DNA from: Acidimicrobiia bacterium
GTDB taxonomy: Bacteria; Actinomycetota; Acidimicrobiia; Acidimicrobiales; SHLQ01
NCBI GenBank assembly: GCA_029858875.1
Contig: JAOUEE010000003.1
Coordinates: forward strand, 1-39,354
DNA length: 39,354 nucleotides
Reading direction: 5' to 3'
Under the pieces are notes generated by a model. That model ran no database searches and had not been told where the DNA came from. It worked only from the letters and a program-made list of their open reading frames with translations. Both the position numbers and the translations under genes were made by a program. Within the stretch, counting starts at the first letter, position 1; every line of letters begins with the position of its first letter. Shown here one piece after another: positions 25,343 through 27,699 of the stretch.

Positions 25343-25414
25343 CCGGTCGAGGTGCGGTCGTCGGTCAAGGGCACCGGGTGCCGCTCCGACTCGACGCGCG
25401 TCCGCTGGAGTCGA

Positions 25415-25420
25415 TACTGT
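25415..25420 (+). promoter_or_regulatory. Likely -10 box of the lipoprotein gene
   Basis: TACTGT fits TANNNT and would give a start site near 25427. The resulting short leader contains GAGGGGG at 25436-25442, which serves as ribosome binding site for ATG 25451. Confidence 0.4.
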
Positions 25421-25450
25421 CGAGGCATCGATATGAGGGGGCAATCACCC

Positions 25451-26167
25451 ATGCTCGAGTCCACGACGCCCAATCGTCGCCATTTTCGGCTGGTGCCGGT
25501 CGTACTGGTGCTGGCACTGCTCAGCACGGCCTGCAACTACCTGGACTGGGGCCCCGGCGGGCCCGAGCGTCCATGGTGGTGCGATCCCACCGACACCGAG
25601 GTCAATGATGGCCACGGTGGTGGCGCGCATGGTGGCCATCATTTCCCGTACACCGAGCCCAAGGGCCCCCTCACGGCCGGCAACTGCCTGGTGACCGACT
25701 ACATGATCGAGCAGGCTCTTCCGCTGGCCGAGCAGTTCCCGACCGCCGGCGACGCCGAGGACAATGGTTGGTTCCAGCTGGCGCCGTGGATCCCGGGACA
25801 GGGCACCCACCACCTCGACCTCAGCTACGGCATCCCCAGCCAGTTCGACTGGACCCGCCCGACGATGCTCATGTACGACAGCAACAGTCGCAGCGGCCAG
25901 CTCACCGGCATGGTGTGGGCCGTCGCTTCGGGCATGCATCCACCGGCCGGCTTCCCGGGCGACAACGACCATTGGCACGCCCACCAGGCCCTGTGCTTCC
26001 GAAACGGCACCATCATCGGTGACGGGCTCACCGATGCCGAGTGCGCGGCACTCGGCGGGAACAACGTCGATTCCTCCGGCATCTGGCTGCTGCACGTGTG
26101 GCTGCCCGTCTACGACGGCTGGCTGGCCACCGACATCTTCAACAAGGAACATCCCAGCATCAACTGA
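25451..26167 (+). CDS. Histidine-rich lipoprotein of unknown function
   Basis: The 238-residue protein has a lipoprotein signal peptide: RRHFRLVPVVLVLALL followed by the lipobox LSTAC, with lipidated cysteine at about residue 28, so it is anchored outside the membrane. The mature part has a His/Gly cluster (NDGHGGGAHGGHHF), a soluble domain with TMLMYDSNSRSGQLTGMVWAVASGMHPPAGFPG, the motif DNDHWHAHQALCF and a C-terminal SGIWLLHVWLPVYDGWLATDIFN. The histidine groups suggest metal binding. ATG 25451 is chosen over 25433 because GAGGGGG lies eight bases upstream. I recognise no named family. It is convergent with the SDR gene. Confidence 0.8.
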   Translation: MLESTTPNRRHFRLVPVVLVLALLSTACNYLDWGPGGPERPWWCDPTDTEVNDGHGGGAHGGHHFPYTEPKGPLTAGNCLVTDYMIEQALPLAEQFPTAGDAEDNGWFQLAPWIPGQGTHHLDLSYGIPSQFDWTRPTMLMYDSNSRSGQLTGMVWAVASGMHPPAGFPGDNDHWHAHQALCFRNGTIIGDGLTDAECAALGGNNVDSSGIWLLHVWLPVYDGWLATDIFNKEHPSIN

Positions 26168-26255
26168 TCGACCACCACGGGATCCGTCACCGAGCGGGGC
26201 GACGGATCCCGGCGGTGCGCCGGCGGCACCACCGCTGGTTGAGGTCGATCAGTTG
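26161..26255. terminator. Nested inverted repeat between convergent genes (bidirectional terminator candidate)
   Basis: The outer arms are a perfect 13-bp inverted repeat, CAACTGATCGACC at 26161-26173 and GGTCGATCAGTTG at 26243-26255. They contain the last codon (Asn) and TGA stop of both flanking genes. Inside lies a perfect 11-bp inverted repeat, CGGGATCCGTC (26178-26188) and GACGGATCCCG (26201-26211), with a 12-base loop. A further GC-rich hairpin-prone stretch (GGTGCGCCGGCGGCACC) follows. No T-tract is present, as is common for GC-rich actinobacterial terminators. Confidence 0.7.
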
Positions 26256-27241
26256 GCGGCGGCGAAATTGTCGCCGAGGCCCGCCCGATCGATGCAGAAC
26301 TGCCACAATGCGGCGCGACGAGCCGGTGTGTCGGTCTTGCGGGTGCGGCCCAGTTTGTGGATCGGTCTCACCCGGCGATCCAGCCAGAAGCGGCCGTTTT
26401 CGCGGCCGGGCTCGTCGGCCGCGGCCAACCACACCATCGTGTCGGCGCCCTGAGCCGGCGTCCGCAGCAGCGGGCCCACCACCCGGCGGAAGGTGGGGAG
26501 CGACTCGGCCACACCCGGGGTGTCGGCCCAGCCGGGATGCAGCGCGTGGAAACGCACTCCTGATCCGGTCGGGTGGGCGGCCCACATCTCGTTGAGCGCC
26601 ACCTGTGCCCGCTTGGCCCGGGCGTACTGCTCGGAGCCGTTGTAGTCCCCGGCCGGCATCTCCAAACGGTCGACTCGCAGACGGGTGGCGTACATGCCAC
26701 CCGACGACATGGTGATCACCCGCCCGGGACGGTGCTGATCGCTCAGCCGATCGAGGAGCAGCGCCGTCAACAGGAAGGGACCGATCACCTGACTGGCCAC
26801 GGTGGCCTCCGAGCCATCGGGTGCCTCGGAACGGGTGTCGGCCAGAGCGCCGGCATTGTGGAGCAGGGCATCGACGCGCGGGTGCTCGGCCCGGATCTGC
26901 TCGGCGGCGGCGCGAACCGCGGCGAAGTCGCCCATGTCGGCGATCACGATGCCGATGGCGTCGTTGCCGCTGACCCGCCGGATCTGGTCCCGGACCGCCT
27001 CGGTCTTGTCGGGGTTGCGGCCCAGCAGCACGAGCTCGGCACCACAGCGAGCCAGCTGCTCGGCCGCGGCCAAACCGAGGCCGCTGGTGGCGCCGGTGAG
27101 TACCATCACCCGACCGTGCAGGTCGTAGTCGTCGAGCGGCTTCCAGTCGTCCAACCGGGACCGGACGGCGTAACCCAGTCGGGTGAAGCTGGTGACCACC
27201 GGCGCCTCGATGGCGGTGTCGAGCAGGTCGGCCACGCCCAT
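26249..27241 (-). CDS. Short-chain dehydrogenase/reductase (DHRS12-like)
   Basis: The 330-residue protein is an SDR with an extra N-terminal stretch (APVVTSFTRLGYAVRSRLDDW) seen in the DHRS12-like group. The cofactor motif is LTGATSGLGLAAAEQLA, followed by LLHNAGALADTR, a serine in VITMSSGGMYATRL and the active-site YARAK. A complete Ser-Tyr-Lys set is present. The start overlaps the stop of the SRPBCC gene by one base (TGATG), so the two are one operon. Substrate is unknown; the group is often annotated as dehydrogenase of hydrophobic substrates, which I give only as background. It ends inside the nested inverted repeat. Confidence 0.88.
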   Translation of the reverse strand: MGVADLLDTAIEAPVVTSFTRLGYAVRSRLDDWKPLDDYDLHGRVMVLTGATSGLGLAAAEQLARCGAELVLLGRNPDKTEAVRDQIRRVSGNDAIGIVIADMGDFAAVRAAAEQIRAEHPRVDALLHNAGALADTRSEAPDGSEATVASQVIGPFLLTALLLDRLSDQHRPGRVITMSSGGMYATRLRVDRLEMPAGDYNGSEQYARAKRAQVALNEMWAAHPTGSGVRFHALHPGWADTPGVAESLPTFRRVVGPLLRTPAQGADTMVWLAAADEPGRENGRFWLDRRVRPIHKLGRTRKTDTPARRAALWQFCIDRAGLGDNFAAAN

Positions 27242-27699
27242 CAGGTCACGTCGCTTCGATGGAGGGCCGATCCTTGCAGAGCCTGACGCAGGCCAGCAGC
27301 AGCTCGATTGCCGACGCGACCGAACACCAGCCGAAGGCCCAGTTCGCCCACCCGGAGGATGCCGTTGAGCGTCAGCTCGGCGTCGTAGGTGACGGCGCAT
27401 CCCTCACCGTCGGGTTCGATGGTGATCAGGTCGGTCGACGTGAGCGCAGCCGATCGAGCGACCACCAGTAGCCGCCTCGGCGCGTCATGCTCCATGGTCC
27501 GGTACCGCAGGGTGAGATCTCGTCCTGGACCAGCCACCGTCACATCGAAGACGCCGCCGGGACCGCCGCCCTCGCCGGCGACCTGGCTCACGGCGCGAAC
27601 GCCCGGGTCCCAATCGGCGAAGTTCCGCAGATCCGCCAGGTAGGCGAACGCGGTCTCCGGGGGGTGGGGTGATCGGATGCGAGTGGTGTAGCGAGCCAT
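27241..27699 (-). CDS. SRPBCC (START-like) family protein
   Basis: The 152-residue protein begins MARYTTRIRSPHPPETAFAYLADLRNFADWDPGVRAV, the standard opening of the SRPBCC/polyketide cyclase-like fold that binds hydrophobic ligands in a deep cavity. Later strands include GGVFDVTVAGPGRDLTLRYRTMEHD and a C-terminal long helix. ATG 27699 is chosen because AGGAGG lies six bases upstream on the - strand; the ORF-track start is longer without support. It is translationally coupled to the DHRS12-like SDR, so it may deliver, sequester or cyclise that enzyme's substrate. Confidence 0.85.
   Translation of the reverse strand: MARYTTRIRSPHPPETAFAYLADLRNFADWDPGVRAVSQVAGEGGGPGGVFDVTVAGPGRDLTLRYRTMEHDAPRRLLVVARSAALTSTDLITIEPDGEGCAVTYDAELTLNGILRVGELGLRLVFGRVGNRAAAGLRQALQGSALHRSDVT

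Follow-up and report, generated by a model that had tools for sequence, protein, structure and literature searches.

The 95 bases at positions 26161-26255 of the window, the 39,354-nucleotide stretch of an uncultured actinobacterial (Acidimicrobiia) genome that we analyzed, are predicted to fold into a nested hairpin that probably serves two convergent genes as a shared, bidirectional 3'-end hairpin of the I-shaped kind, which lacks a U-tract. The structure is genuine and stands out within its genome; its function we infer from sequence. On one side lies a lipoprotein-like gene (25352..26167, plus strand; stop 26165-26167) with the lipobox STAC and a likely start near 25451, to which no Pfam or NCBIfam family matched. 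On the other side lies a short-chain dehydrogenase/reductase (SDR) gene (26249..27400, minus strand; stop 26249-26251), whose true start is probably near 27250. The two genes converge on stop codons 81 bp apart.

The outer symmetry is formed by the gene ends themselves. The left arm, CAACTGATCGACC (26161..26173, plus strand), comprises the final 4 coding bases of the lipoprotein gene (C and the Asn codon AAC), its TGA stop, and 6 bases beyond; CAACTGATCGACC read on the minus strand (26243..26255) holds the SDR gene's final 4 coding bases, its TGA stop, and the next 6 bases, the two frames ending ...ATC AAC TGA and ...GCC AAC TGA, respectively. These arms are perfect reverse complements with a sharp end at 13 bp, and a gap of only 81 bp brings both stop codons into them. 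They enclose a main hairpin foldable on both strands (26178..26211), whose perfect 11-bp arms, CGGGATCCGTC (26178-26188 and 26201-26211), extend to 14 bp if one mismatch is allowed; it is predicted at -25.9 kcal/mol alone and has no U-tract behind it. A second hairpin on the plus strand (26219..26239) has 8 pairs, 2 of them G-U, with -13.9 kcal/mol predicted for 26212-26242. Outer and inner arms are separated by 4 bases on one side but 31 on the other. The inner GC hairpin starts ~10 nt downstream of the lipoprotein gene's stop; for the SDR gene, this distance is ~37 nt. The sequence-only reading had described a perfect 13-bp outer repeat containing the last Asn codon and TGA of both genes, a perfect 11-bp inner repeat, and an additional GC hairpin, all within 95 bases, and each of these elements is present as described.

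The predicted fold of the whole 95-nt element is -65.0 kcal/mol (z = -8.0), and none of 200 shuffles was equally stable. Its interior without the outer arms is predicted at -44.4 kcal/mol, and about -50 kcal/mol remains when the left outer arm is scrambled. The minus strand with flanks has about the same predicted stability as the plus strand; since two of the second hairpin's pairs are G-U, minus-strand RNA would fold that part differently. Genome statistics were drawn from a 373-kb sample, about 9% of the assembly, with genes called by a simple purpose-made caller. In this sample, the element ranks first of 24,768 95-nt segments by GC-corrected stability, and the gap is the most structured of 48 convergent gaps (z = -8.6; the runner-up has -4.8), a ranking to which some selection bias applies because the gap was chosen by an oddity-seeking reader. 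The single match in an Rfam covariance-model search was far below its family cut-off and lay outside the gap.

We propose that a transcript from either gene would fold the 11-14-bp GC hairpin, after which the outer 13-bp stem would close in read-through RNA. The hairpin would help RNA polymerase to stop, whether alone, with Rho, or by head-on polymerase collision, and/or would shield a trimmed 3' end from exonucleases. Position is consistent with this proposal, as both stops of a convergent pair lie within reach of a stable hairpin predicted on both strands. The element also has the feature by which I-shaped terminators are defined, a GC stem that lacks a U-tract and lies no more than about 50 nt from a stop (PMC12288462). 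Across the 48 convergent gaps, arms of at least 10 bp were observed 5 times against 0.42 expected, and arms of at least 9 bp 6 times against 1.7. Simple GC hairpins followed by little or no U are also present between other convergent genes (10 bp at L081 6770/6823; 8 bp at L069 7681/7710). Of the three explanations that the sequence-only reading had offered, a bidirectional terminator is the best supported, given the position, the folding of both strands, the enrichment of hairpins at convergent ends, and the unrelated hairpin that follows the ortholog in a relative. On the other side, perfect short-loop hairpins are just slightly more frequent past stops than within genes, and most convergent pairs lack them, so the genome does not depend on them. 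Neither a U-rich tract nor a predicted terminator pattern follows any stem of the element (1 T in the 8 bases past the inner stem on the plus strand), which does not fit a canonical, L-shaped intrinsic terminator; a lack of predicted U-tract terminators fits a genome of 69% GC. The genome encodes Rho, or at least the N-terminal part of it (at a contig edge), and a Rho-plus-hairpin 3' end is thus equally possible.

Known systems offer partial parallels. Like bidirectional intrinsic terminators, the element is a single symmetric segment within a short gap between convergent genes, whose hairpin both transcripts would fold; unlike them, it has no U-tract on either side, an extra outer stem over both stops, and a second hairpin. 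In Bacillus cereus, overlapping terminators common to convergent genes are more conserved (PMC5381666). With the I-shaped or U-poor ends of GC-rich actinobacteria it shares a GC-rich stem less than 50 nt from a stop, a single U in the next 8 nt, and a 69% GC genome, but it is nested and multi-branched where those are single stems. In Streptomyces clavuligerus, structured U-poor transcript ends are more numerous than U-rich ones (PMC8269248), I-shaped terminators have been described in mycobacteria (PMC12288462), and hairpins that lie, mostly in clusters, no more than 80 nt from a stop have been reported as the usual termination units (PMC8355165). Termination without a U-tract is disputed: among the papers that PMC12288462 cites, one is cited for the U-tract being dispensable, and another states in its title that mycobacterial polymerase requires a U-tract. 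In E. coli, head-on polymerase collision combined with a hairpin is a studied route to termination (PMC13082048). If our reading holds, the element would clearly exemplify strong bidirectional 3'-end hairpins without a U-tract in an uncultured actinobacterial lineage, whose relatives point to Acidimicrobiales, and would lend itself well to testing whether they can end transcription. It would leave the general picture unchanged, being ordinary in kind and extreme in degree.

The lipoprotein gene has its nearest ortholog, 76% identical, in genome G001, on a contig that is apparently a contig of MAG SS_bin_33. This ortholog ends CATCAAC TAG TCGAC, and the left-arm ending is thus common to both genomes. 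The G001 locus has no SDR gene, a co-directional gene instead, no right arm, and no symmetry; an unrelated 12-pair GC hairpin lies ~36 nt past the ortholog's stop. Local alignment of the 3' flanks of G001 and the window beyond TCGAC was equalled by 209 of 2000 shuffles, and homology of the inner left arm to G001, for which local alignment likewise did no better than shuffles, was dropped. Weak DNA matches in relatives (L004, L006, and L007) were rejected as homologous palindromes, being short, GC-rich, and inside long open frames. The best SDR relatives are 58% identical, come from other genera, and have different ends. Sought as a source of compensatory substitutions, the same gene pair was not found among 19 genomes of the family or in GTDB contigs, which yielded four lipoprotein relatives only. 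Most simply, then, the symmetry would have arisen after both genes met in the window's lineage, with loss in G001 as the alternative. An inversion or a hairpin-mediated duplication, which the sequence-only reading also suggested, may have produced it.

Two accounts of how the outer arms originated overlap with the functional reading, and both are compatible with a terminator at the inner hairpin. By one of them, which we consider improbable, a polymerase paused at the inner hairpin switched template by folding back and copied the lipoprotein end over the SDR end, giving it the same Asn-TGA; the outer stem would then need no selection for a terminator. The left arm is likely the older one, since CATCAAC-stop-TCGAC is present in G001 without an SDR gene or a partner arm, and such a copying event is also suggested by the sharp limit of the arms at 13 bp and by the rarity of AAC as last codon (5 of 318 genes). 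However, the unequal arm spacing means that a single fold-back copy requires a later insertion, the G001 flank beyond TCGAC gives no significant alignment in the shuffle comparison above, and C-termini are so variable among SDR relatives that they supply no ancestral SDR end for comparison. It is somewhat unlikely, by our estimate, that the gap holds an ordinary hairpin between gene ends whose 13-bp match is coincidental, aided by common TGA stops followed by TCG. TGA is the stop of 266 of the 318 genes, 20 of which have TGATCG, and perfect 13-bp inverted repeats occur genome-wide at about chance frequency (for arms of at least 13 bp and a maximum loop of 100, 5 in 373 kb against 4 in two Markov replicates, ~2 per replicate). 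Coincidence fares less well at convergent ends, where arms of at least 13 bp appeared in 0 of 7,200 simulated segments; 6,000 simulations of a 141-nt segment also gave no 13-bp arm, and scaling to the whole genome gives at most about 0.2 such pairs (extrapolated). The two comparisons with chance thus differ: the matching gene ends are surprising, yet not impossible at the scale of a genome that may have some 500 convergent pairs (extrapolated).

A mobile or repeated palindromic element (REP/BIME-like or a MITE) that landed in the gap and took over the stop codons of both genes, another possibility raised at the outset, seems to us scarcely credible. Nested symmetry and unusual predicted stability would suit such an element, and REP/BIME units are likewise intergenic palindromes close to gene 3' ends, but the element here is single-copy and belongs to no repeat family. 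A 135-bp region spanning it matches only itself in its own 4.06-Mb assembly, and the lipoprotein end is also present in G001, which lacks the element. Whole-element searches gave no match in phages and plasmids and, in relatives, only weak, short low-complexity or coding matches besides the lipoprotein coding end in G001. Within its own genome, the 13-mer has no second exact copy and its one-mismatch copies are scattered singles, while the 11-mer occurs seven further times, never paired. Being single-copy and absent from phages and plasmids, the element does not support a mobile palindrome. Sites of the attC type have the consensus RYYYAAC/GTTRRRY; the flanks do not match it, and an attC-like recombination site was rejected. 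We also think it very doubtful that the outer stem was selected for sequestering each stop codon in a read-through 3' structure, which would couple translation termination in both genes with the ending or decay of their transcripts.

Two other very strong hairpins of this genome likewise lack a U-tail: a perfect 17-bp GC stem lies between co-directional genes (L074 3330-3420), and a perfect GC stem of at least 15 bp (L081 14930-15040) adjoins a putative tRNA gene, in a segment that the simple caller treated as coding. The lipoprotein-like gene is itself a member of a multi-copy family in these Acidimicrobiales (G000 C510, C521, and C464; G001 C381 and C393), whose conserved stretches are PWWCDPTD, DAEDNGWF, and DNDHWHAH, and its Gly/His-rich stretch contains a perfect 12-bp inverted repeat of its own (AATGATGGCCAC / GTGGCCATCATT, 25604-25643).
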